Shown here piece by piece: positions 5,901 to 49,087 of a stretch of DNA of 64,000 nucleotides (position 1 is the stretch's first letter; each line of letters opens with the position of its first letter). The position numbers were made by a program, and so were the translations under genes. This DNA comes from Brachionus koreanus (Eukaryota; Rotifera; Eurotatoria; Ploima; Brachionidae), in assembly GCA_016987375.1 (NCBI GenBank), contig PJRA01000509.1, forward strand, positions 1,043,564 through 1,107,563, read 5' to 3'. Under the pieces are notes generated by a model, which was not told where the DNA came from, did not search any database, and worked only from the letters and a program-made list of their open reading frames with translations.

Positions 5901-8900
5901 ATGCATTGGTCATTTAAATCAGCATAGCCATAATTTTATTGCTTACATTCAATTTTACTGATCATCTACATAATTTAATTTTCAAATTTTTATTTAAAAA
6001 GCTAATTCTTTAAATATCTATTGAGTTTTGAAAGAATTTTTCTAAAAATATTTTAATTTATTTTATCGTCAAGACCTTTCCAGCCATTTATATTGAGTGT
6101 AATGAAGCCATTTAATGAATTGCCATTATGCGATTCGAAACATTCTAATTTTAAATACCAAAAGCAGCTCAAACAAACTTATTACTTGGAAAACATGATA
6201 AAATATCAGAGCCAAAACTTAAATGTATCAACACTGCTAAATCCACATTTAACTGTTCTTCCATTTAAATTGTTTTTTGAAAATTTGTATAAGTTTAACG
6301 AAATAGCGTACAAACTGGACTATTTGATTGATGAATATGACCTATTAGAGAAATCATATATTCTTAAGCAATTAAATTTGGTTATTAAACAAACAGGAAT
6401 GCTTAATATGAACCGTAATGTTGAAGACTTGGCTTTTTATTCTGCAGATGAAACATCTTCTATTGAGCAAACGATCAGTATTGAACAATTACATGAGCAA
6501 AAATTTTATTTAGCTCTTCTCTACTTGCCTAAATTAATGTTCGATATGAGTGATCCAAAAAAAAATTTTCTATCGCAGTCTATATGCGTTGGAAATGAAT
6601 CATATGATTTGATTGTTCAATATTTAATCAATCTATTTGAAAATCCGAACACTTGTGCCAATTCTTTTTTGTTTTTGTTCAATAAGCTCCCAAAATTTTT
6701 GTCCAAAAATGAAATTCAGAAAAGATTTCTTCCAATTTTGCTCTCAGTTCTTAACATTGTTGATTTAAATGAAACATTGGGCATAAACTTTCACCGCGAT
6801 GATGATAAAGTCAAATTTTGCAAACTTTTTGATTACACATTCATAAATGAGCTTAGAATTATTTTTGGCTTAGAAGTCTTTTTGAGTCAAATATTTCCAT
6901 TTCTGATCGAAGCAATTTCAGGCTTTAAAGATTTTGATTTTGAGTCAACTTCAACAATAACGGACAACATATCAACTGTCGCATTCAATTGTTTCCAAAG
7001 GGTAATTACAACCCTAGGACCAGTTCTAACTTGCAAGTTTTGTTGCAATGATCTATTTAAAATGCTTGCCATTTGCTATATGAACCAGAAATGCTTGATT
7101 CGAATTGAAAATAGTGACAATCCGCTAAATAGTTCTCATCCGGTCGAAGGAGATCGTTTTGCCAATTTGATTCTGGCATCTCTTAAGACAGTAGCTATGT
7201 TTTATGGAGAACAAGTCATAGTAGCTCAATATTTGCCATACGTATCAAACACAGTAAAATTTTTCATTATTTTAATACCAAATATTGCCCTATTAATTAA
7301 TTTGTCATTATATCGGGCGTTCAAACAAGAATGTTCAAAAGTTTTTTAAGGTAAAAAAATATGTCCTCATTGACTGAATTTAACCAAATTTTATACAGTT
7401 ATTTAATTTCATCTAATAATTGAATAAAATATAAAATCTAAGTTAATACAAATTTTAGTTACAAAATATTAATCACTTTTTTTTGCTCTTAAAATTACCT
7501 ATTAGAAATATACATTAACAATGAAAACATTAAAGGACACTCGTCAATTTTAGGTTTAGGTGCTCCAGATGCCATAATTCTGGAGATTATTGGATTTTAT
7601 ATATTTTTAATTATTAGATGATATTAAATAATTGTACAAAATTTGCTTAAATTCGGTCAATGAGAGCATGTTTTTTTACCTTAAAAAACTTTTGAACACC
7701 CGTTATTTTTGAATTGAATTACTATAATTGACAAAAAATTTTCAATAAATTAACTCTAGGTACTTCGTTTAATGAAATCTAATGGGTTTAAGGATTAAGC
7801 ACACATAAAAATCTGATCCACACGCTTCAAGTTATTTTACCCACACATACTAAATCTTGTAAATACATCCACGGACTATCACACAAGAAAACTGAAAAAA
7901 AGACTAGGCCTAAATAAATAATTTTTCTTATCAAAACTTAGGTTCTCTACTAAGCACACTCTATAGTGTGATTTATAGTCCAAAAAATTTTAAAAATTGA
8001 AAAAAAAATTGATTAAGTTATGAATTGATGAGATACAATTATGTGTTCGACTCAGTTAATCTCGGATCAGAGTTGTTCCGAAAGCCAGATCAAAAAGAAG
8101 TTGCACAAAAGATTATTTAAATAATTTGACTCAATTTCGGAAAAAAATTATAAATATAAAGAAACACAACAAAATTTTTTAAAAAAAATTTAAAACGATA
8201 AAATTCTTTTTTCAGTCTTCTGATTATTTGAAAATTAAGTCTGGATGATATAAATAATGTTCCCAAATTCATTAATATAATTTTTAAATAATCGCAAACA
8301 ATATTTTTTATTGTTTCAATAGACATTTTTTACTTTTTGAGAACAAATTTTTTTATATATAGAAAAGGTCTCTTTATAGTGACTTTTAACTTGATGATTA
8401 ATGATAAACAATTATAATTTGTTAGAAAATGAGCGAAATTAGAGATTATTGTTTAATAAGCAAAATTAAAAATTGAAATAACTTCTTTACATCTAAAAAC
8501 ATTTTTGAAAGATGTGTCAGCTGGTCACTGAATTTGTTCACATTAAAATTTGATCTTAAAATTTTATTATAATGAATGAAATACTCCTTTGAAGAATTTC
8601 TGAATTTTAAATCATTATAAAAAATTTTTTTTCAATCTAATTTTTTTTTTGCTTTTCTGGTACAAAATTCAAAATATACACAATTTATAAATTTCTCACA
8701 AGAATTCTTATGAAAATATTTAAAAAATAAATATCAAGCTCAAAAGTTGTGGCCATTTTTACACATTTAATAACTAGTATTTTGTTTAAATTTTTTGGCT
8801 GCTTTATTATAAGTGTTGTTTGAATTTTTTTGCCTTTAAAGGATAAATTTTTAAATATTAAAGTTTTTAATTTAGTTATCTGACTTTCAAGAAAATTATA

Positions 8901-17682: not shown

Positions 17683-18239
17683 AGCAAAGTGGTGTTTGCG
17701 TTAGTGATGAGTCGAGCATCGAGGGTATCAAAAGTGTAGTGTTACATCTAATAGCCTTATGAGTGTTCATTTTCTTAGCAGAAACCTTTAGACAGAAACA
17801 ATTTTCAAGACTTAGAAAAAGTTAATATTTTATTATTCTAATTTTCAATATTTTGCATTAGCTAAAAAAATAAACAAATGCGATAAAAATTGAAATTCTT
17901 TAAAACAATAATTTCTGAAACTAATACTTTTTAAACATAAGGTAAATCAGAGGGAGAGAATTAATTCTAAAACAATATTTTATTGGTTTCTGTGCATAGA
18001 AATAAAAAAAAGAAAGAAAAAGAGTGAAAAATTCCATTTAGAAAAATAAAAAATATTTTACTTAGACATATAAAAATTGCCAACGAATCACAATATTTTT
18101 GTTTAAAACTCAAACCAATAAACTAGTTCAGCCAATAAAAAATATTGTTTATCTTTTATACAAATTATATTTTTGCTAAGAAGTATATTTAAAACTTATT
18201 TTTCTAATCAATATATTTTAGAACTGAGCAAAATAAAAA

Positions 18240-19406
18240 ATGTCTAATAGCACAAACTTGGGAATAAACCCGTATCAATTGAATTATATTCGCGCAGTGC
18301 AGATGGCCGCACTGGCGGCCTCAACACCCCATCAGCCACCAGAGCTAATGACCAACTTGTACTTGAACATGTCGAGCACAGTGACCAAAGCGTCGCCTAG
18401 TTCTTCGTCTTGCTCTTCGCCATACCAGTCATCCTCTAGTCAGCACCAAAAACCTCCCTATTCATACATAGCCCTGATTGCCATGGCAATCAAAAACGCG
18501 CCTGACCACAAAATAACTTTGAACGGAATATACCAGTTTATCATGGAACGGTTTCCCTACTATCACGAAAATAGACAAGGATGGCAAAATTCGATCCGGC
18601 ACAATTTATCATTGAACGACTGCTTTGTAAAAGTCAACCGGGAGAAAGGCAAGCCTGGCAAAGGAAACTATTGGACTTTGGACTCAAAATGCGAGGAGAT
18701 GTTCGAGAATGGAAATTACAGACGACGAAAGCGAAGACCAAAGCAACAGATTAAAGAAGACGCTGACTTAGACGATGGTGTATCGAAAAAAATTAAATTA
18801 GACGACGATGAAGACAAATATTCGCTGTGTACTTCATCGATTAGCTCGTCGGCATCGACCAGATCGAGATCGCGTTCCAGCTCTGTGTCGTCGCTCGATT
18901 CTTCTGCATCCACTTCATTTAAAAAGAGAAAATTAAAAAAAAAGAAACACGTGGGAAAAGAAATTGAAAAATCAGCCGAGAAAAATTTAAATTCAACTGC
19001 TTCTTCGGGCACCGGCTCGTCTTTGGATTCGACTCGGTCCAATTTTTCAATAGACAATCTCATGAATCATGAAGAGGAAAAAAATCCTAGCAAAAGAAAC
19101 AAAACACCACCGTGTTTGGAAAATTTGCCCATACCACCGCAAATAGTCAGCGCGGTTCCGCCTCCTCCGGCCAAAAATAAGCTAGAATTGACACCATCAA
19201 ACAATGGTATAGGCAACTATCAAGCAGCTATGACTGCAGCCTTATTTAACTCTAGCACAGCAGCGGCTCTTGCGCCTTTTTTAGTCAATCAAAATCATTT
19301 GTTTAACACTCTAGCACAACCCAGTCCGTACATGAATCAGTTAGCTATGTGTGCCAATTTGAACAATCTAAATTCGTTCAATTCAACTACATCTGGCAAA
19401 AATTGA
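18240..19406 (+). CDS. FoxL1: FoxL1-like forkhead transcription factor
   Basis: A nuclear DNA-binding transcription factor of 388 residues in a single exon. The forkhead domain spans about residues 70-168: [25 protein letters not shown], helix 3 with [19 protein letters not shown], and YWTLD. The wing-2 block [15 protein letters not shown] and the [15 protein letters not shown] stretch fit FoxL1 better than FoxC or FoxF. A Groucho-binding eh1-type motif FSIDNLM lies at residues 269-275. Basic clusters at about 161-168 and 229-237 can serve as nuclear localisation signals, and a Ser-rich linker lies between. The N-terminus is Ser/Ala rich. ATG 18240 sits just after an acceptor-like TTTTAG, so a spliced 5' UTR is likely. 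AATAAA occurs at 19581. FoxL1 genes act in mesoderm patterning in other animals; the role here is inferred. Confidence 0.9.
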
Positions 19407-23062: not shown

Positions 23063-26000
23063 TTAAGAAAGCATAGCAGATTGAAAAATTTGCTGCATAA
23101 TTTTGGGTATATCGTTTGTATTCATGCAAATAAACGCTTTGTTTGCTGGCAAATTGTTTTTCAAATAGCTAGCTTGGTTTCCAAGAGTGCCTATAAACAA
23201 GCAGAATACATTTATTTTTCGGTCCGTTTCGGTCATAATGCGAGAAAAGTTTCTCGGTGATAGACCATATCTATCAAAATTTGCATCAGACAATACAATA
23301 ACAAAATAGTCATCTGCTTCTTCTTTAGCCAAATCTTTAATTGCTTGACTTGTTGCCTCAAAAGTATGATCGCCAGACGAGCAAAATTGTGAATGAGCAA
23401 CCAAAGTATGCAAAATTTGAAGCCGCTCTGCTTCGTTTTTAGGCGCTTTACCAGCCTCAACAAAACCAATGTTGTATCCGTCTCCAGAATGACCAACAAT
23501 GTCATACACAATCTTATTCTCATAACCACAAAATGATTCCATTACCATTAAAACAGATTCCATTTCGCGTTCTAAACGATTGTCAACACCATTAAACCGA
23601 TACATGCTCCCACTTACATCAACAACTATTTTGAGTCTTTTGGGCTTTTCATGTTGAAACGAATTGTCCGCGTTGGGATCTTCACCTCGTCTTTTGTAAA
23701 CATTTTTTTCTCCTGTAATAGCTTCAACCAATTTGGCATCATCCAGATCACCTTGAGTTTGATTCTTAAGCCACTGGCGTTCTTTTTTTTTTGCCTCAAG
23801 ACTATCAAGAATATTTCGCAATTGCTGTATTGGACGCTTTACATTATTTAGATATTTTGTGTAAACTTCATGCTCATAGGGACTCATTTGAATTTCTTTA
23901 AGACGCTCTTTGAATGCTTTTTCACCCATTTCACGTGCTGCTTTGCGCACATGTTCTGGAACATTCTGTTTCATTGTGTCACTTACTTGAAATACTTGAT
24001 TGCCAGAATCAAGACGGTAAGGACCACCAACACCGCCAAGTCCAGCCGTATCGAATCCCCCAGAGCCTCCGGCCCACGTATTTCCTCCAACATGTGGTGC
24101 GTTTGTTTCATCAATTTTGCCATGCTTTGGACCATTGAAATCTTTAAGTTCGACATTCGGACTCTCTTTGAAATATTCAAGACTTAGCTTTGAAGAATAT
24201 GACTGGACCATTTTTTTCCATTTATCTAGAGAAATCGTAAGTTGGGCCTTGTCCACTTCCCATTGATGCAAATTTCCGTAAAAATCAAGACTGTAAACAA
24301 ATTCGCTTGAGGCATCCAGTAAATATTCTGATTCATTTTGACCAGTTTTCAAATCCCAAGAGTCAAGATTGGAAAAATTGAATGGCTTTGGAACTTGAAG
24401 ATATTTAACCGTCTTTTCATTTAAGTCTATTATTTCAATTAAACCCAGGGTGTTTTCAAAGAAATCATCTAGAGCAGGTCGGCTTTCATTGCTAACTTGA
24501 GTGATTATTAGTTTTTTTTCATAGTCTATCATTGACTTCAATAGAGGATTTTGGCTTTTAATTTTTGAATTTTGGTTTCGGAGGGGAACTTCTCGGGGAC
24601 AATACCATTGATTTTTTTTGTTAGCATCTGAATCTGATAAAACGATAAAATGATTTTTGATTGAGGGAATAATAATTGCATTTGACAAAATTTTCTCAGG
24701 TGTTAACTAAAAAAAATTCAAATTAAAAATGGTTTCTGTTTGTTTTAATTATTTTAATTAAAAAAAAACTAGAGTTTGAAAAATTTTAATCAAAAATTAT
24801 TTTCTTTATTTAAATGAAAAGGGAAAAATTTGAATTAGATTCAGATGAAAGCTCAAATTGAAAAAAAATCATATATTTAAAATTATCTTTGAAAGGAAGA
24901 AACAAATTTTTAATCATTTTAAAAAAAACTAGATTATATTACGCATTTTTAATTTTGGGATCAAGATTTTAACTACATTTTAAGGTAAATGAGTTTTAAG
25001 CCATTTTATTAATATAATTAGATCTTAATAATGTACCATTGACAAAATTGACTTATTTGATTTAATAGTTTTTGTTCCTAATATCCAAATCAATAAATAT
25101 TTAAGTATAGTTTAATGGACTCGATTCTGTTTGTTAAATTGATCTAAACAAAAGTCAATATTTATCAATGTTTGCATTTTTAGTTTCAATTCATTGACTT
25201 AAATGATCATATGATATTAATAATAATATTTTAGTTTAACTAAATTAACAAAGCAGAACGACTATCGTAGTCCCACTATAGTAGACTTAATTTTTTTAGT
25301 TTATTTCTACCGATATTATTGATTTGGTTGATCACCTTTTTTGAATGCTACTGTTACACAATAATATGCTTCTTTCTCACAAATTTAATTTTTTTTTTTT
25401 TTGACCCNNNNNNNNNNNNNNNNNNNNNNNNNNNNNNNNNCGGTCCCCCATTTTTTGATGAAAGGGGTTTAAACATGGGCCCCGTATTGCAGAGATATTT
25501 TGAAGATTTTTCCACCCTCAGTGGGTTTTGAACCCTCCACCCTCTGCACAAATTTAATTAATAAAATTGAATAAATTTAATTAAATTGCAGAAAGTTTGA
25601 AACAAATTTGTAATGGTAGAAGATCAATTTTTTTTTTGAAGCAAAAAATTATCGATTAGCACTGATACTAAGTTACTTGGCTTGTAAAAATTTTTTAGAC
25701 AAAATCTGAATTTTCATTTTTTGCAATAAGTGTGTAAAATTTTATTAAATACAAAGCAATTTAATTTAAATTTACAGAATAAATTTTGCAAATTTTTTTC
25801 TAGTTAGAAAACAAAGCATGCAAACTGTCTATGCAAAATTATTAAGAAATTTTTTTATCAGTTTTTAATTTGTTATTTTTTCTCAAAAATATAATTAAAT
25901 TGAAATTTTAATTTGTAAAAAAAATAACTATACTTTAATTAATAAAATTTTACCTCTAAAATGAAGTTATCTTTTTTATTTTTTACATCAATTGAGCTCA

Positions 26001-29000
26001 TAAAAGTATCTCCAGGTACAAAAAAGTTTGAATCAATTTGATTAATTTCATTGCTGAAAATGTCAATCAAATAATAACTTAGGTTTTCATTTTTTACCAT
26101 ACTGGTGTTATTTATATCACCTGGGTTATACAAAGCGGCTAGTAAACATTGTTCACTTATTTTCACTAAGTTATTTATTCTAAGACTTGAATCAACAGCA
26201 ATTCTTTTGTCATTCAATGTGTTGAAATTCAGTATTGTAAAATCACTTGATCCAGTTTTATATTGAATTAAAATATTTTCATTAAAAGTTACAAGCCTAT
26301 TTTGACTAGCTTGAGTTTGAAAATATTTTGAAATTTTGGCTCCTATAAATTCTCTGGAAAATTGCAATTTTTTCCCAACCAAATTAACAAAATCTAACTC
26401 GATGGCTTGGTTGGTTGATTCTTCAAACAGAATTATAGCTGAATTAATATTATTAATTTTGAAATTTGGATAAAAACTTCGCCATGCTCCTTTAAAATAA
26501 TTGCCGACGAGAATTTCTTTAGCACTGTTACTATCTAAATCAATTTCCACAACACTTAATGGCTTAACACCAGCAACATAGACTTTTTTTCCAATTACCA
26601 TAAAATCTGATATTAATTTTTGTCTAGCACCTAATGACCAAACAGATCTCAACTCTGAAAACAAATCAGCTCTTTTTTCAACTTGTTCACATTCAAAAGT
26701 TTCACATTCTATTTTAAACGGTGCACCAAAACCGAACTCTGAAACTTCTACTGAACTTGGTGACAACTTTTTTGTCCTCACATCTAAATTGGACATTATA
26801 TGGTGAAGTTTTTTTATTTGTGAAAGACTAATGGACAAACGTGATGCTCCAACTGGAATTCCATGTTTATTCATGACTTCTGTAAAAGTTTCTTTCAAAT
26901 TGTTTTGGTCCTCATACTGATCAAAATCATATACATTTGCCAACACTTGGGGCAAAGAGTCATCTGGATATTTTTCTAAATGTTTAACTACATTTACAAT
27001 CTCACGCGTAGAATAAGGATAAGAAATTAAGCCCTGATCGGACATTTGTCGTAAAGTTCCAAATGCGGAGATTAGTTTCTTCAAAATATCTTCGCTAAGA
27101 CTAGGCGCATAGTTTCTAAGCATCTGAATTTCAGAGTCCGGATCGGGGTTGTCAATTGGATGTGTGGAAAGAAGATCTCCTAGAATAGAAAAAAAATCAT
27201 TGCCAAGAAATGGATAGCCAGGTCGATTGGCAAGGATAATCATGCGAAAATTTGGATGCATTTCAATAAAATTTTCACTATTTCTTCCATTTAGATGCTT
27301 TACAATTCTACGACCATCGCTTAGTATCATTTCACCACTTTCTATTAAACTCTTTAAAACACTTGTCACATGTAGAGGAGCCTTGTCCGCCTCATCTATG
27401 ACCAAAACTTCGCCAGTTTTTATTGCTTTTACCAATGGTGAGTCTTCATAAAAAACTACCCCATTTTTAATGCATGGTTGGACTGTGAGTGAATGAACAG
27501 TAGTATCACGATGTAGCTGCAAATATTCTCTTGGAGTCTGTGTCATCATTAAAAATTTATCGACTAATTTATTTTTACCTGTTCCTTGATTTCCGATTAG
27601 AAGTAAATGCTCATCCAAGCTAAAATCTTGATATAAACTATTGAGTATTTTAGAATGTAGCTTATTCTCGTAAAATACAACATCAGGTATTTTGGAAAGT
27701 TTGTCGATTTTAGCTTTTTTAGGAATTTGTGCTATGTCAAATGATTCTTCGGATGATTCGAATATAAACTTGGACAAAAAATCATCAAGAACTTGTTTGT
27801 TTAGGCTAGGCATAAATTTGTACAAACAAGAGTTTAAAATTTCTTCTTTAAGATTAATATTTGGATATTTTTCAATTTTTTTGCATAAACGAATCATTTT
27901 ACGCAAGGTGAACAAACTAGATATGTGCTTTAAATGACTGTCTGTTTCAGATGCAGCTTTAAGTTGATTAATTATATCGAATAGTTGTTCATGTTTGTCA
28001 TTTAATTGAAATTTCTTGCTCAAAATTTCGTGTTCATAGTCAAGGCCTAGCGGATCAACTTTCTGGTATAGGAACAAATTCAAAACTTCAGAATTGAGCC
28101 ATTCGATAGTCACTTTATTATCTGTTAGATTAGAGGCCTCGGCTGTGCCTACTATTCTAAAAGCGGGATCAATTCGCATCAGTATATTTTTAATTCTCTG
28201 TTTTTCTTGATCAGTTTGAGCCGAATTTACCAGTTCATCATATTTGTCATGACGAACTAATTTTCGTCCATCAAATAAGTCTAGTTCACGGTCTTGAATA
28301 AGTCTACGCAAAGACAGCAAAGTGTCATCTTTAAGTCGGTGAATTCCATCTAAGCAAAAAGGAAATTGTTAAAATAGCAAAAAATAGTTAAAAAGGCTGT
28401 TTTTTTCAGTGTTATTTAAATTATTTTTAGATAAAATTTAATTAAAACAAAATTTAAAGCAAAAATGTTTAAATTGAATTGATTAATAACTCAACTTAAT
28501 ATTTTAAAGAATATTTTTTTGAAAATAATTAAATATTCTTATTTTAGAATAAAATTTTTAGAAAACGGTTATTCAGAATTTTTCCTCGTTTTATTTTTAC
28601 CCTTAGCAAATTATTCTAAAAATAAATTACTAAATAAAAATGAAAATATATTCAAATAAATTAAATGATTTTTTCGTTCCCAATTTTATAAAAGAAAAAA
28701 GAAAAATTTATTTATAAAATTATAAAAACGATAAAAAACATTGAAAATAAATTAAACTTGATCCAGATGACTGTCTAAGAAAGCAAGCTGCATATTGCTT
28801 GTTCTTGTAAGTATTTTTTTAAAACAATTAGCTTCAAACTCAAAAATCGAAATGGGAATAAATTAATAAATTTTTTTCGACAGTCAGCAATTTTTTTTTA
28901 AACTAGCGCTTATATTAATAAGTAAGCTTCTTTTTTAAATTGATGATTGCCTGATTTGATAATTTAACATCAAATATTTTGATAATATTTCATGAATTTT

Positions 29001-31461
29001 AATTTATCAAAAAAGAAAGAATTTATGTTTTGAATTTGAATTTCACAAATTTTCCATCGATTATTAAAAAAAAATCAAATTTTTCCTTTATATTTATTGT
29101 TCCCAATGTTAATGGTCTTACTCGAGCTGTCGATGAATCTTAAGTTCTACTAGTGCTTAACTTGGTTTGTAATTTACTTTTCTTAAAAGGTCTACAGAGA
29201 AAGATAATCCTATTAAATATCTTAAGCAGGACTTGTCAAGTTCCTAATCCAGGACGGTATAGGAACCTGAAAGATTTCAAAAGATTTAAGATTCTTATGC
29301 TTTTCTTAAATTTTCTTAACGCAATTTTTTTCTTACTTATAAGATTTTTTAGGATCAATAAAGAATCAGTTAATTAAAACTCACAAGAAAGTCAATCAAG
29401 AACTAGTTTGATAAGATCTGATAAGTAAAAGAAAATTTAAGAAAAGCACAATAATCTTAAATCTTTTGTTAAATTGAATTGAATTTAAAAATATTTTTTC
29501 AAGTTAATTTGAAAAAAAATTTTTTTTAAAGTATTATAAATATCGTGAAAATAGATATTTTGAGTTTATTGTAGTATTTTATGTTTTCAAATATTGTTTC
29601 TAAAAATCTTTCAAGTTGAAGTGAAAAACCATAGAAGAACATATTAATTTCAATTAGAATAATATCCTTAAAACTCTTTAGATTTTGTAAATCTATAGCA
29701 GTGAAAAAATTTCTTTATTTGTTTAAGAGTCATTATTATCTTTCTTTTGAAACCAACCCAATGAACTAATTTTTAACATATGTGTCAATCGATGATTTTT
29801 TTACATTAAAAATAAATAAAAATTTTTTTTATGATTTTTAAGAAATTTTTGAATGCTTTTTCTTAATAAAACTGATGATTATCATGGTGAATTTTCACAT
29901 TATTGACTTTCTCAATTAAAATATCATGATAACAATTAGACATGTAATCCGAGTTTTAGAATTATTAAAAATAAAAAAAAAACTAACCTAAAACCATAAG
30001 ATCTCCATTTACGGCCGCCTCTATTAATGGTGAATTTAACCATTTTGTATCACCACTAGCCTCAGTAACACGTTGCTGAATCAAATCTCTTGCACTCATA
30101 TCCTTAAATAAATACATCGATTGAGTAGAATAATCTAAAAGAGTGGCAAATTTGTTAATTAATTCAGTCTTTCCACAACCAGTTGGTCCTATTAAAACAA
30201 AGTCATGACCACTCGAATGATTCAAGAACATGTCCACTAATAAACTTGAATGATATTTATTCATAATAAAGTTCTCATTCTGATTATTTAGGCTATTTCC
30301 CTTAGTCACATCAATAGAAAATAATTCACTATTGGACTTGAAATTTATTGTCTTAGATTCCAGCTTATCATTTACAGAAACAAACTCATTTTCAATAGAC
30401 ATTCTGTCCTCTTCTATTCCAAATTTAGTCAACATATTTGATACAACTTTTTTTTTACTATCATCATTCTGATACAGAAGCTGGTATGGATAAATTTTTT
30501 CAACCATGCTAATTTCTTTAATAGGCAATTTATTAAAATTGTCCATAATTTTAGCGATTTTATCCAAATTTTCAATGGGAAAATCTACTAGGCCAATGCT
30601 GTTCATTTCGGTCGAATATAAAGAATAGGAAAAATCAAAAATTTTCTTGATTAATTCTGACTCAACATTTTTATAATTAGATTTTAAAAAGAGAAAAAAA
30701 TCATCATAACTTGGATAGGATACTAGATGAGCCTGGAATCGGGACCTTAGAGGCGGATCGAGTAAATTTCCTTTATATTTTGGAACGGGTAGACCAATGG
30801 CTATAACCCTAAAATCTTCATGAACTCGAAGCAAATTGTTCATATCTGAATTCAAGGATTTTAATTTGTCATATCGTTCTGGTGAAACCATGAATTGTCC
30901 GTCATCCAAATTAATTTCTCTATTTTCGAGAAGATTGTTCAATATGGGAAGCAAGTTTCGCTCGGCTTTTTCTATACCTTCAATAATTAGGATACGGCCA
31001 TTTAAAGCAGCATTTACTGCACATTGATTTTCGTACAAAACTGATGAGTTTTTTACTTCGCGACGCTGCTTGATGTCAGATTCGGTAGTGTCTCTTGTCA
31101 AACACAAATATTCCACTTCGCGTTTCGTTATTTCGGCGTAAGAAAATGCCAATTGACGTCTAAATGCACCTGGTGGAGAACCGATTAAATAACAGTCTTG
31201 TTTGAGTGAATCTTTTTGCATTAGCCATCTCAAATTTTGTAAATATGCTTGCGAACTAATAGAATTATTTAATCGGGCAAATCCTTTTGGAACTTTTTCT
31301 TGATAAACAGGATCATTGAGCTCTTTTACTTGATCTCCAATGCGAATAAAGGTTTTTTCTGGAATTTTTTCAGATGAATAAGTTCGATTAGAGCTTCTGA
31401 AAGTAAGTTTTTGACTTATTTGAGCCAATTTGAAAATGTTTGTCGGTCTAATTGGTATCAT
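23063..31461 (-). CDS. VWA8: VWA8 homologue: mitochondrial AAA+ ATPase with C-terminal VWA domain
   Basis: VWA8 is a dynein-like, MoxR-type AAA+ ATPase of the mitochondrial matrix side. Three exons on the minus strand, 31461-29988, 28349-25954 and 24706-23063, join in phase to 1837 residues (human about 1905). The N-terminus is basic and Ser/Arg rich, fitting a mitochondrial targeting peptide. A degenerate first P-loop (GSPPGAFR) is followed by GPTGCGKT at about residue 425, GNQGTGKN at about 744 with Walker B VLVIDEADKAP, and a VWA domain with an intact MIDAS motif DVSGSM at about 1653. A Gly-rich linker (NTWAGGSGG) precedes the VWA part. The join LVLDGIHRLKDDTLL across intron 1 matches the family. 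The introns are 1638 and 1247 nt; the second holds the assembly gap. The whole gene lies head-to-tail 144 nt after a small membrane-protein gene. Confidence 0.94.
25408..25440. other. Assembly gap (33 N)
   Basis: A run of N lies inside VWA8 intron 2 between a long T run and a C-rich segment. Coding sequence is not affected. True length is unknown. Confidence 0.99.
25441..25552 (-). repeat. Possible tRNA-derived SINE fragment next to the gap
   Basis: The segment right of the gap is much less AT-rich than the intron around it. On the minus strand it reads GGGTTCAAAACCC (complement of 25523-25534), which resembles an RNA polymerase III B box / T-arm. No matching A box can be seen on the available side. 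A repeat here would also explain why the assembly broke. An alternative is an unrelated hairpin. Confidence 0.3.
29279..29467. mobile_element. Foldback element in VWA8 intron 1
   Basis: The left arm (about 29279-29321, AAAGATTTAAGATT ... TTTTCTTAAATTTTCTT) is inversely repeated at about 29431-29467, with a weaker inner match (TTACTTATAAGATTT against the complement of AGATCTGATAAGTAA). The loop is about 110 nt. There is no coding capacity. It looks like a short, partly decayed MITE or inverted duplication. Confidence 0.55.
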
Positions 31462-33608: not shown

Positions 33609-34810
33609 TTATGGCATGAAAGCACCTTTAACGCTTGTAGCCTGAATACCAACTCCAGGGGTTGTGAATAATCGCTTACCCCACTGGGTCAAATCATTAA
33701 CACTGGATTTCAACCAAGTGTATTCTTGACTTTGATCACCACTTACCATATTCAATGGAGCTAGACTTTGTCCACAATCGTTACCATTTCCAGCCCATGA
33801 CCAGCCTAAATAGCCAATTCTTTTATCTCTAGCATAAGTCATCAATTTTGTGTAATCGATGTTTACCCATGAACACGATGGGTGTTCGGGATGCTTGTCA
33901 GCAAATTCGCCAAATATCCAGGACAAACCAGTATTGTACAATTTATTAATATAAGTATCCATATTGTAACGGCCACCAATTTTCCAATCAGCATAGGCAT
34001 GAATGGAGAAAACTATGTTTCCATTGTAGTGATTGTTTCTATCGTAATTCACCAATGATTGTCCATGAGAAATAATTGCAGTTGGATCTTGGGCATAAGC
34101 TGGAGCGTCAATGACCAAAACGCCTTTCCAGCCTTTGTTTCTAATTATGTTGATTGCGTTCTTGTAAGCATCGTGCCAAACTTGAGCCGAAGTACCAAAT
34201 GGGCTCTTTAATTTTATTATAAATATTTAAGCTTATTTTCAAAAATATATTTTACCCATTCATTAGCAATATTTATCATCAAAAATCTGTGATAACGCTG
34301 GAATACGTAAAGATGCTCGGCAAACCATTGAGCCAATCTGCTTACTTGAGAAGAATCAGAACTACCTGTGGCGTCATGTAATTGAACAATTACAGCAAGC
34401 TTATTTCTAATGGCATTCTTGATTGCGTTTTCTAAATCATTTATTGTAAGACCACCAGATAAAGAAATTCTCCACTGGATTCTGACCGTATTGGCGCCCA
34501 AACTAGAAATAGATTTGAAGCTCTTTCTGGCATAGAATCTACTATAGTTGTCCCAATCAGCATTGGCACTATTTACTCCTCTGATCAGAAATTCTTTTCC
34601 ATCACAATCTCTAATTTGTCTACCAGAAACAGAGAAACCATAATTAAATCTTTCACATCGCCAAAATGCATCGCTATAAAACGAACAAGTGAGACCTGAG
34701 GCACAAGTCTTATCACCAGTATAACCACTTCCGCCACATTGATTCCATTCTTGCACAACAGCGCTTGACAATTGAAACAAGGCAAATGAAGCAACAATCA
34801 ATTTAAACAT
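33609..34810 (-). CDS. Secreted GH5 endo-beta-1,4-mannanase (GH5_8-like) with N-terminal CBM1
   Basis: It probably cleaves beta-1,4-mannan in algal or plant cell walls in the gut lumen. Two exons, 34810-34256 and 34205-33609, join in phase 0 across a 50-nt intron to give 383 residues. ATG 34810 begins a signal peptide (MFKLIVASFALFQLSSA). Residues about 20-53 are a fungal-type CBM1 module with its Cys pattern (QCGGSGYTG, CASGLTC, WRCE). The GH5 barrel follows: GVNSANADW, VQLHDATGSSD, the acid/base Glu in INIANEW (residue 184), SIHAYADW, the nucleophile Glu in IFGEF (residue 285), and YLGWSW. These blocks resemble bacterial GH5_8 mannanases. A cellulase is the alternative. The intron falls directly after the catalytic NEW motif. 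A CBM1 on a bacterial-like GH5 catalytic domain suggests horizontal acquisition and module shuffling. Confidence 0.88.
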
Positions 34811-36724
34811 TTTGTTGTTCAACACTTTTTTAAAAATTGATGTTTTCTCAATTTATTTTAATCGAATTTATAGCAGGTGACAAATAAATATTAAATATAG
34901 ATCAAAATTTAAAATCCTTAGCCAAATAATGCAATCTAATCTTGCAGAATATAATTCCTATTGATATTGACATTGAACCTCACACTTTTAAGGTTGCAAA
35001 AAAGCCTACCTTACATTAAGCAAATTTTTGTCTTTGTTTTTGATTCAGACAATGTCAACATTTAAAAGTAAAAAAACATAAGCTGATAAAGTAAATAACT
35101 TTAAAAAAAAAAAAACAAAAATTAAATTATAATCAAGGATTACATGAAAATTTTCTTTTATAATTTTGAGGATTTTTTTTGTAAATATTTTGATTTTATT
35201 TGAAGACTCTAGATTAGTATAATTATTTGGTTTAATTTATTTGCCCTAAAAGTTGAATTTAATAAAATGATTTAAAGTTTTACCCTGAGAATTAAAATTA
35301 ACTTTAACAAAAATTTGAATTTGCTGCAACTAGAAAATATTTTGTTTTTGATGAGAAAAATAACAATATTTTTAATGGATTGTCCGATTTAGTTCATTTA
35401 TTTAAATAGTAAAAGAGGCGATGTAAATTATTTTACCAAAATAATTTCTTGCTAATACTCATAGCTAAATATTAATAGCCTTTGATTTGAGTAGTGTTTG
35501 GCGGGGCCAAATGTTAATTTTTTTTTAATAAATTTTACGCTAATTTCTAGAATTAAACAAATATTTGAGCTAATTCACTTCTTTTTGAGAAATAAAAATT
35601 AAAATAAAATTTTAGGATCTTGTATTTTTAAAACTTAATAAAATAAGTTAAATGTTAAAATAAACAGAATTGAATGCTCATCATAATGATATCTCAAACT
35701 CTTTGCTTATTCAATTTTGAAAATTTTATAAAATGTAAATTTTAAATAAATATTTTGAAATTTTAGTACTAAAAAAGAAAAAAGCTCAATCAGAAAAAGC
35801 AGTAACTTGTGAAATATGCATGAGGAAGGTGAAAATGTGCTTAAAATGTCCTTAAAGATGGTTACATGAATTGTTCAAAATATTTATAAGTGATTCAAGT
35901 CTTCAGAGGAAGAAAGGGACAGGTAGGTTTTTAGTTGGTTATCAAAGTAAACGGACATTGGCGAGTTTTTTCTCATGATTTAACAGATTTCGATATTCAA
36001 CAACGCATTTTAATTCGAGAAAACCACTTAAAAGAATTCTCTAGATATTGAGTTTTTCAAATTAACTGTTACTTAAGATGAGAAATTATTTCAACATAAA
36101 TAAATGGTTGGACCCATCACAACCAGCTAAGATAGTCGTGAAAAGAGGTAGCTTTGATAAAAGTGTGACATTGTGACTTTTTTTTTTATTTTGTTTTAAA
36201 GTCCACATAGCTAAAAAAGAGACAATTGTGTCAAAAAATAAAAATTTTTATTTTAAATTCAGCAAAGAAAGTGAAAGATTTTTATTTTTCTAAGCTTTTT
36301 TTATAATCAGCCGAGTAAACTAATTTTTACTTTTTTAACAAAATTGTTTTTTTCGGATACCTTTAAAAGACACACCCCAATTTTTTTAAAAGACAAATTT
36401 TGGTTTTTAAGGGTAAATTTAAAATTTTTTTTCTCTTAAGTATTTTATTGTTAATTTGGACCTGCTGATAAAATCATGTTTGTTTTCTCACTAGAAAAAA
36501 TCTTGTATGAGATATCATCTTTTATTTTTTTGGTTTACTGCACACCATTACCTTGTTTTTACATCTATGTTTTATTTCGTCTATCAACAAAGTAAAAATT
36601 AATTTTGAATAAAAAATTAATCCAAGTTTAAATAAGTACTTTTATTTATTTAAAAACATTTTTTCACTGGATTTTACAAATAAATTCAACTTAAAAAAAA
36701 AACAAAATTTTATCAATAAAATAT
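34811..36724. other. Intergenic, nothing clear seen
   Basis: AT-rich DNA between the mannanase start and the TRIM gene end. A short stretch near 35770-36130 is less AT-rich and has broken reading frames, but I cannot assign it. Confidence 0.45.
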
Positions 36725-45886: not shown

Positions 45887-48673
45887 TTAAAAAAATTTAA
45901 TTAGAAATATTTTTGTAATTAAAAAATAAGAGACAACTGGCTTAATTGCCTTGCTTGAACGAATTGTTTCAATTACAGAATTTTCATCTTCTTCAATTAA
46001 AGGCTCATTCAACTCAAAGATAGCTTCTGAGATTGTAGAATCATTTTGAATCGAAAGATCAAAAAGTTTAGTACTAGCTCTTATCATTTGAGTAAAACTT
46101 TCATTCAACTGAACACAATCATACATGCACGCATTCTGAAGAACATCCTGAGGCATATTCTCATCATCTACTTCAATCTTAATCCCAGAGCATAGACTAC
46201 TGCATCTTTTTTGATCAGAACTTCGTTTTTTGCGCAAAGAAAAATTTTCATTGTCTACTGTAGTTTGACAGCCTTCGTACAAATAGCCCAAGCTTTCAGT
46301 ATAAGTCTCGTGTTTAGCTCTTAGCAAAATTGAAAAGAAAGAATTCCATCTAGATATCAAAATGTGTGTTTTAGTTTGTTCAATGAACAAAATACGATAG
46401 GGAATTATTCCTCTAGTAGTAACAACCATTTCTACTGATTTGTTATTTTGAATATCATCTGTATATTCATTTATGTAATCAAGCCCATTGTCAAAAGTGG
46501 TCGGAAAGCTTGTGTGATTGGCTTCGAAAGTAACATTGGTGCCATTTTGTAGTGTGTACACAAATTTAATTTTGGTCAAAACAGTGGCAATTTGATCAGC
46601 TCTACCAATGTGTTTGTCAGTACAATAAAGAACAAAGCTACCATGTTGAAAGCAAATGGCGTCCGAACCAATTGAGCAGAGTTCATAATTGTTTTTGTAT
46701 GAGAATACATGAGGATCTCCAGTTATCCATGTTGTGTGTCTGATAAAATCTTCACCTTTTGGACATTTGAATTTTGAGTTTGATGAACAATCATCAATTG
46801 AAAGCGATGGATCGCATTTTGGTGACAAATTGCCATTCAGAGATATATTCTCTTTCTTGGTCATTAAAAGCATTTCACAGCTTGGTCTTTTTCTAGAATA
46901 AATTACTGTTCTATCTGATTTTAGTTGTTTGAGCATGCACTTGGGCATGATGTTTATATCATCAATAGACAATGTTATACCAGCGAATCCAAATGAGTAC
47001 GAAAATTGGGAACATAAAGATTTTGATGAAAAACTCTTAATTTGATTATTTAGTAAGTTGATTGAAATTTGTGTCACAAATATATTTGCTTCGCTGATTT
47101 TTCTTTCAAAAGCATAGTTTGGCAATCTGCTTATTTTATTATTGCTCAAGTCTAGATATCTAAGAACTGTAAGTTCGCTAAAATCGGCAATTGCTTTCAA
47201 ACGATTTCTGCCCAAGTATAAATACCGTAGATTTGTGTTATTTTTGAAGGCATTTACGTTTATTCTAGTTAAGAGATTATTATTTAAATAAAGTGTGCGT
47301 AAATTAGATAAACTTGAAAAGGAATTTTTTCTTATTTTTTCAATTCTATTTGATTGAAGATAAAGCTTTTTAAGACTTTTTAAATTTTCTATTTTGATGT
47401 CGTCAATCATGTTGTTTCCAAGTCTTAAATATTCAAGATTAGTTAAAGAAGCCAAGTTTTGATCTGAAAAATATTTAATCAAATTGTTATTAAAATGAAG
47501 AGATTTTAAATTTTTAAGAATATTGAAATTCGAATAGTCTCCTATTCTATTTGAAGAAATATCTAAATAATTCACGTTTAAAATTGCATTTAAAGTTTTT
47601 CTGCTCAAACTAGTTAAATTATTTGATCTAAGATTAAGATTACTAATAAAAGGAAGATAAGAAAAGTCTATATCTTGAATGTAATTATAAGATAAAGATA
47701 GATATTTCACATTTATTAAATTGCCTATTTTTTGTTGATCAATTGATCCATTTAAATGAACATTTGATAAATACAGGTGAGTAAGATTTTCTAGGCAAAA
47801 TAATTTATTTGAACCCAAATTGTTGTTCGAAAGTTGAAGTTTTCTTAAATTATTTAGCCCACAAAATGTCCTTGATGGAATTTCGGATAAATTATTTGAG
47901 CTTAAATAAAGACCGTACAATCTATGATGCATAATTGAGGGTTCTATCTGGGCTACTAAGTTTGATACCAAGTGTAATTCTCTCAAATCTGTCAAGTATT
48001 CCAACATTTTACCATTTAATTTAGTGATTCTATTTCTATTTAAATAAAGATTAGTTAATGATTTTGACTCAATTTGAACATTTTCCAGAAAATTGTTACT
48101 AATATCTAATCTATACAGATTTGGAAACGATTGTGTAAAATTGAATTCAAAATTTGAAAAATTGTTATATTGAATGTTCAACTCATTTAAGTTGGAGAAA
48201 TCACTAAAATCTTTCATTGTTTGAAAGACAGTAGCATCATTGATGCTAGATCGTCTGATTGTTAGTCTCTTTACCATTTTAGATATATGAACTTGCTGTG
48301 CTGTCAGTATAATACTCAAGTTTGAAATCGAATCCAAATAAAGATAGTCTAATTTTTGAACATTTTCAAAGGCATTTGAATCAACAGCTTTTAAATTATT
48401 TCCATAAATATATAAATAATTAATGAATAAAAAATCAAAAGCTTTGCTTGGAAGATACTTTAAATTTCTAAAGCTTAGCGTATAAATCTTATTGCTTGGA
48501 ATCGGATAAGTTATATTTGGAAATTCGGCACTATTACAATAAATTCTGCATCCACTTATGGAATACGATGAAGAGCATGATGGAAAAGGACATCTTGGAT
48601 CAGAATATGATAATATAATATAAATACTTATTTGTAAATAAAAGAAATAAAATTTCATTTTTAATGCTAACAT
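45887..48673 (-). CDS. LRR-RGM fusion: leucine-rich-repeat ectodomain joined to a repulsive-guidance-molecule core
   Basis: An intronless gene of 928 residues from ATG 48673 (an in-frame ATG at 48658 is the alternative start). A hydrophobic leader (FYFFYLQISIYIILSYS) is followed by a Cys-rich cap (CPFPSC ... CRIYC) and roughly 18-20 LRRs over residues 60-555 (repeats such as LRTLYLNNNLLTRI and LKKLYLQSNRIEKI). After a Cys-containing linker the RGM part starts at WITGDPHVFSY (GDPH at 652-655, the self-cleaving Asp-Pro site of RGMs). It continues with LTKIKFVYTL, FPTTFDNG, GYLYEGC, a furin-type RKKR (814-817) and NACMYDC, matching the order of blocks in vertebrate RGMs. The last 17 residues are hydrophobic, as in a GPI signal. 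RGMs are neogenin ligands and BMP co-receptors. The usual RGM N-terminal BMP-binding domain is absent and LRRs take its place. A plain von Willebrand D fragment is the alternative for the GDPH part. Confidence 0.75.
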   Translation of the reverse strand: MLALKMKFYFFYLQISIYIILSYSDPRCPFPSCSSSYSISGCRIYCNSAEFPNITYPIPSNKIYTLSFRNLKYLPSKAFDFLFINYLYIYGNNLKAVDSNAFENVQKLDYLYLDSISNLSIILTAQQVHISKMVKRLTIRRSSINDATVFQTMKDFSDFSNLNELNIQYNNFSNFEFNFTQSFPNLYRLDISNNFLENVQIESKSLTNLYLNRNRITKLNGKMLEYLTDLRELHLVSNLVAQIEPSIMHHRLYGLYLSSNNLSEIPSRTFCGLNNLRKLQLSNNNLGSNKLFCLENLTHLYLSNVHLNGSIDQQKIGNLINVKYLSLSYNYIQDIDFSYLPFISNLNLRSNNLTSLSRKTLNAILNVNYLDISSNRIGDYSNFNILKNLKSLHFNNNLIKYFSDQNLASLTNLEYLRLGNNMIDDIKIENLKSLKKLYLQSNRIEKIRKNSFSSLSNLRTLYLNNNLLTRINVNAFKNNTNLRYLYLGRNRLKAIADFSELTVLRYLDLSNNKISRLPNYAFERKISEANIFVTQISINLLNNQIKSFSSKSLCSQFSYSFGFAGITLSIDDINIMPKCMLKQLKSDRTVIYSRKRPSCEMLLMTKKENISLNGNLSPKCDPSLSIDDCSSNSKFKCPKGEDFIRHTTWITGDPHVFSYKNNYELCSIGSDAICFQHGSFVLYCTDKHIGRADQIATVLTKIKFVYTLQNGTNVTFEANHTSFPTTFDNGLDYINEYTDDIQNNKSVEMVVTTRGIIPYRILFIEQTKTHILISRWNSFFSILLRAKHETYTESLGYLYEGCQTTVDNENFSLRKKRSSDQKRCSSLCSGIKIEVDDENMPQDVLQNACMYDCVQLNESFTQMIRASTKLFDLSIQNDSTISEAIFELNEPLIEEDENSVIETIRSSKAIKPVVSYFLITKIFLIKFF

Positions 48674-49087
48674 TTTCACCCGAATAATGAGTATTTATAT
48701 CAATCCAATTTTTAAAAAATAATGCCTGTAATTTAGTATATAACCAAAGAGATTACTCAAAAGATATGTAATTTAGTATTTGGCATTTATTCAAATCCTT
48801 TGGCAATAAGAAAATATAAATTAATTCAAAATTTACGTAAGTTAATTTAAAAGAAAATGTTTAAACAAATACCTAATTTAATAAAATGAATGAAATTACA
48901 TTCTTCATTAAGATATTTTGTTGGAATTTTAAGTTAATAAATATTTTTAAAAAATTTTTTTTTCCAATATCTTAAAATCAGTTTTGTGAAATTTAGTATA
49001 AAATAAAAAAATTAAACAAAATTTAATGCTAAAAAAGCTTATAATTTTTTTTCTGAAGGCTTCTAATTATTTCTGTAAGTGCAACAT

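Follow-up and report, generated by a model that had tools for sequence, protein, structure and literature searches.

What becomes of a repulsive guidance molecule (RGM) when the module that serves bone morphogenetic protein (BMP) binding gives way to another recognition head? RGMs link neogenin guidance and BMP signalling via two modules of one protein, and work on vertebrate RGMs describes BMP binding as requiring the N-terminal domain and neogenin binding as needing no more than the C-terminal one (PMC7354924). The question is raised by a gene of the rotifer Brachionus koreanus, located in a 64,000-nucleotide stretch of contig PJRA01000509.1 (this whole stretch is referred to below as the window), whose product joins leucine-rich repeats (LRRs) to an RGM core. 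The most likely answer is a surface or shed neogenin ligand of the glycosylphosphatidylinositol (GPI) type, in which LRRs replace the BMP-binding module and for which we infer binding, self-cleavage, and anchoring.

A single-frame fusion of LRRs and an RGM core

The first-pass annotation of this DNA had proposed that LRRs and an RGM core share one frame, and translation of the window bore this out: 928 residues are encoded on the minus strand without an internal stop, including across the junction (Table 1). The surrounding open frame starts at 48694 and the first methionine, at 48673, was used; the second, at 48658, is the start of the model of a B. plicatilis orthologue (P0001). The protein matched Pfam LRR_8 (E 1e-47), and a simple LRR pattern found 18 repeats (500 shuffled versions averaged 4.4 and reached 9 at most), in agreement with the 18-20 repeats first estimated. 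The predicted structure of the LRR part has a pLDDT mostly above 85, and residues 35-628 are covered by at least a fifth of the aligned LRR chains among its structural matches. Cysteines of the N-terminal cap (C28, C33, C42, C46) are kept in all six rows that reach that far in an eight-row alignment, and those near the LRR/RGM junction (C554, C579, C599, C629, C637) are invariant in a nine-row alignment. The array, the cysteine caps, and a leader that is signal-peptide-like as judged by hydropathy alone are the features of extracellular LRR proteins. No immunoglobulin (Ig) family matched the full-length protein in a Pfam scan at E up to 1; scanning of the C-terminal part alone gave a weak Ig_SIBA-E_3rd match within the RGM core (E 0.06, below the cut-off), and no interior 19-residue stretch has a mean hydropathy above 1.11. 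Judged from its sequence, the protein is placed outside the LRIG family, being without Ig domains, a transmembrane segment, and a cytoplasmic tail.

The core carries the conserved blocks FPTTFDNG, GYLYEGC, and NACMYDC. RGM_C scored 25.1 bits with the whole protein (E 1.1e-5), just below the curated cut-off of 27, and 28.4 bits with the C-terminal 309 residues (E 1.1e-6), just above it; the alignment spans nearly the entire profile, and a Pfam RGM_C match was found in all eight fusions compared (the window protein and seven relatives). When a profile of seven LRR-RGM cores was searched against the PDB at E up to 10, RGMB was the sole sequence matched, with the two GDPH motifs aligned to each other. 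In the structural comparison that had been proposed, Foldseek ranks 1-7 were all RGMB chains (E 2.4e-5 to 5.7e-4) and the next chain followed at 0.017; the core model used has a low mean confidence of 51.7, with about 68 across residues 51-170. On this model, the core probably folds like the C-terminal domain of RGMB.

The choice between RGM_C and VWD for the C-terminal part had been set beforehand as the deciding comparison, and it fell to RGM_C. At E<=0.001 the VWD profile (PF00094) had 25 matching places in the genome, and neither the window gene nor any of its four paralogues was among them. In the match lists of seven cores at E up to 10, from which the HMMER filters remove the majority of matches beyond about 0.1, RGM_C was present in all seven and VWD in none. 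An ordinary VWD identity was ruled against, given the missing VWD profile match and the lead of RGMB in both Foldseek and the PDB profile search.

The suggestion that LRRs stand in place of the BMP-binding part also held. RGM_N, the profile of the N-terminal domain (N-RGM), did not match the protein in the Pfam scan at E up to 1, and a search across the B. koreanus genome, run without a positive control, gave no match. The protein seems to have no space for this domain because the LRR alignment reaches about residue 628, about 24 residues before GDPH at 652, whereas N-RGM comprises 70 positions; the exchange of N-RGM for LRRs looks to sit at a domain border. Because no N-RGM domain was found, the window protein is an RGM-derived variant rather than a canonical RGM.

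A family of LRR-RGM genes in Brachionus

In the 83-Mb B. koreanus genome RGM_C matched three places, all of them LRR fusions, and a protein search with the core identified at least five LRR-RGM copies, each on a contig of its own; three of them are close and two diverged. The first-pass annotation had spoken of one gene: the single-frame fusion is real, but at least four further copies accompany it in this genome, and GDPH has been lost from two of them. These two, the C1 copy (L012, with GDLH) and the C46 copy (L013, with GLDG), are LRR proteins whose diverged cores scored 66 and 55 bits against the core profile, compared with 6.8 bits for the best of 1000 shuffled controls; Pfam RGM_C matched neither at E up to 1. 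The GDLH paralogue (L012 2612-5851), a natural cleavage-site variant, also has a long extra C-terminal region. In the C11 copy (L005), a stop and a change of frame interrupt the N-terminal part, upstream of a 702-codon frame; the copy is flanked by near-identical copies of one gene in opposite directions (805-1860 and 6811-7827), glycosyltransferase-like by eye, the second being split into two frames.

Further LRR frames are related to the LRR part of the fusion (L028 2064-3827, L029 1419-2819, and L027 1175-3670), the first starting about 10 kb beyond where the GDLH copy ends, on the contig that both share. A comparison with the core at E up to 10 left L028 and L029 unmatched, and L027 showed neither clear presence nor clear absence in the core comparison. 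In all, 110 LRR stretches of the genome matched.

Outside this genome, where a search had been suggested, the same fusion was found in proteins of B. plicatilis (P0001, P0002, P0005) and B. calyciflorus (P0004), and in P0003; these relatives are likewise a lower bound, as P0005 was missed by one protein search and found by another. The B. plicatilis proteins bear the database names leucine-rich repeat-containing 15, slit-like, and chaoptin, which suggests that such names hide the RGM domain. In the tree, each of the window, C11, and C2 genes has its own B. plicatilis partner protein (support 100/100), and for this reason the paralogues look older than the split between B. koreanus and B. plicatilis. 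The core is more conserved between orthologues than the LRRs: between the window protein and P0001, 206 of 230 core residues are identical, compared with 360 of 446 aligned LRR residues, with 94 gap positions. The LRR-RGM fusion is thus conserved within the genus Brachionus.

Predicted processing sites and candidate partners

GDPH is present in all eight close fusions. The furin-type RKKR noted at first sight is indeed there, between the conserved EGC and the following cysteines, at what we take to be the same alignment position as RNRR of hemojuvelin (HJV). An RX[K/R]R-type site stands at this position in six of the eight fusions (window, L004, P0001, P0003, P0004, and P0005, in the last found by reading the alignment) and has no counterpart in L005 and P0002. 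In HJV, RNRR is described as a furin site (PMC4395201, PMC2323002) and the two parts of the protein as linked by disulfides (PMC4395201). RGMa and RGMb are reported to have no such furin site (PMC2323002). The C-terminal end of the window protein is hydrophobic and weakly GPI-signal-like (15-residue hydropathy mean 1.82). The initial description of the protein as a receptor did not stand: hydropathy revealed no transmembrane-plus-cytoplasmic part, and a receptor is therefore unlikely.

The Neogenin_C profile matched the B. koreanus genome (E 9.8e-12). Upstream on the same strand lie an Fn3 frame (fn3 22.4 bits, below the cut-off of 25), in which a membrane-type stretch can be made out by eye, and an Ig/Fn3 frame (fn3 E 4.4e-48); these frames are consistent with exons of one neogenin/DCC gene. 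Matches to transforming growth factor beta (TGF-beta)-type ligands were found at five places. On these profile matches, B. koreanus keeps a neogenin-type receptor together with TGF-beta-type ligands.

Feature map and neighboring genes

Table 1. Features of the LRR-RGM gene in the window.
Feature	Residues	Window position	Strand	Basis or remark
LRR-RGM coding frame, single exon, 928 aa + stop		45887..48673	-	Alternative start Met at 48658
Leader, signal-peptide-like segment	1-25	48599..48673	-	Hydropathy maximum 2.0 over 12 residues
LRR N-terminal cap-like Cys segment (C28, C33, C42, C46)		48494..48598	-	Cysteines in 6/6 rows reaching here
About 18 leucine-rich repeats	61-550	47024..48493	-	Pfam LRR_8, pattern count, pLDDT, structural alignment
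LRR C-terminal cap and short Cys linker, junction to RGM core	551-640	46754..47023	-	Invariant cysteines
RGM C-terminal core	641-868	46070..46753	-	RGM_C, PDB profile match, Foldseek
GDPH motif, predicted self-cleavage site	652-655	46709..46720	-	Position in translation
RKKR furin-type site	814-817	46223..46234	-	Position in translation
C-terminal tail ending in a hydrophobic stretch, possible GPI-anchor signal		45890..46069	-	Hydropathy; inferred

Elsewhere in the window, two adjoining minus-strand frames (33609-34852) jointly match CBM_1, a cellulose-binding module of fungal type (E 8.1e-11), and a domain of glycosyl hydrolase family 5 (GH5); they may represent a gene acquired from fungi or bacteria, or a rotifer cellulase or mannanase. 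Several long minus-strand frames (23063-31461) resemble exons of a large AAA protein, possibly VWA8-like; AAA_5 matched at E 1.5e-31 in 25942-28368, and 23066-24706 matched nothing in Pfam at E<=0.001. A Forkhead transcription factor occupies one open frame of the plus strand (18237-19406; Forkhead E 1.4e-40).

Proposed mechanism and alternative explanations

We consider it rather probable that the product of the window gene is a guidance ligand of rotifers, derived from an RGM and either displayed on the cell surface or shed, which acts through the following steps. After removal of the leader, the core would adopt an RGMB-like fold and the chain would cut itself at D653-P654, the LRR half being held on by cysteines, as the HJV parts are by disulfides. 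The C-terminal tail would be exchanged for a GPI anchor, and cleavage at RKKR would release the ectodomain, as at RNRR of HJV. The core would bind the rotifer neogenin/DCC receptor and the LRR head, in place of N-RGM, would contact a second partner, so that direct N-RGM-type BMP bridging would be lost or replaced. The LRR head could still touch BMP signalling because LRIGs, themselves built of LRRs, resemble RGMs in the BMP ligands that they prefer, the ligand specificity of LRIG1 being called reminiscent of RGM (PMC10441800). A bolder version seems doubtful to us: that the fusions are the only RGMs left in Brachionus, with LRRs in the exact place of N-RGM, that neogenin is uncoupled from BMP bridging, and that the different LRR heads of the paralogues direct a shared self-cleaving neogenin ligand to separate addresses.

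Among the five copies, each on its own contig, two lack GDPH and show divergence in the core, which suggests that they are partly released from the original RGM role; this role may not be retained in every copy. The five-copy family, the related LRR frames L028 and L029 without a core match, and the many LRR stretches of the genome favor an adhesion or immune-type LRR recognition molecule, in which the RGM core would be a self-cleaving, disulfide-linked, membrane-proximal stalk that does not bind neogenin. Against this stand the better conservation of the core than of the LRRs between orthologues, the neogenin kept in the genome, and the RGM_C alignment over nearly all of the profile; we regard a mere stalk as possible but unlikely. 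Far less probable is that the C-terminal part is a regular VWD domain, of the kind found in mucin-like or zonadhesin-like proteins, and has GDPH by chance, an explanation mostly refuted by the VWD matches lying away from all five LRR-RGM loci, by the seven core match lists, and by the leading position of RGMB in both the Foldseek and the PDB profile search. That two genes were joined by assembly or read-through is scarcely credible, because orthologues in two other species and paralogues on other contigs carry the fusion, as does P0003, and the stop-free frame and the invariant cysteines run over the junction.

Evolution seems here to have swapped the BMP module for another recognition head in an animal in which the neogenin-type receptor and the TGF-beta-type ligands were kept, which offers a natural test of the neogenin-binding half on its own and of the origin of new guidance ligands.

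Comparison with known systems

The architecture had been thought undescribed, and no description was found among the open-licence papers that the literature searches listed; the combination of LRR and RGM_C already exists as database annotation, in the precomputed Pfam domains of P0002 and P0003. Like the Nogo receptor, which is among the structural matches of its LRR part, the window protein has a capped LRR ectodomain; the Nogo receptor is GPI-anchored and its function differs from that of LRR-RGM, and we know of no RGM core in it. LRIG1-3, SMA-10, and Lambik are also LRR proteins, and LRIGs are described as promoting BMP signalling, but they differ in being transmembrane proteins with Ig domains and, to our knowledge, are without an RGM domain. 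VWD proteins (VWF, mucins) carry a GDPH-type motif and show a distant fold kinship with the core, although the VWD profile left it unmatched. The closest resemblance is to RGMA, RGMB/Dragon, RGMC/hemojuvelin, and DRAG-1 of Caenorhabditis elegans, which share with the window protein the leader, the RGM C-terminal domain, GDPH, and the hydrophobic end, hemojuvelin also sharing a furin-type site (RNRR there, RKKR here). For DRAG-1, a GPI anchor is described as needed for axon branching, and the protein interacts with UNC-40, the neogenin orthologue (PMC8595726). The Brachionus family differs from canonical RGMs in that no N-RGM was found, and in having an LRR ectodomain of about 600 residues, a single-exon coding frame, and several genes in the genus.
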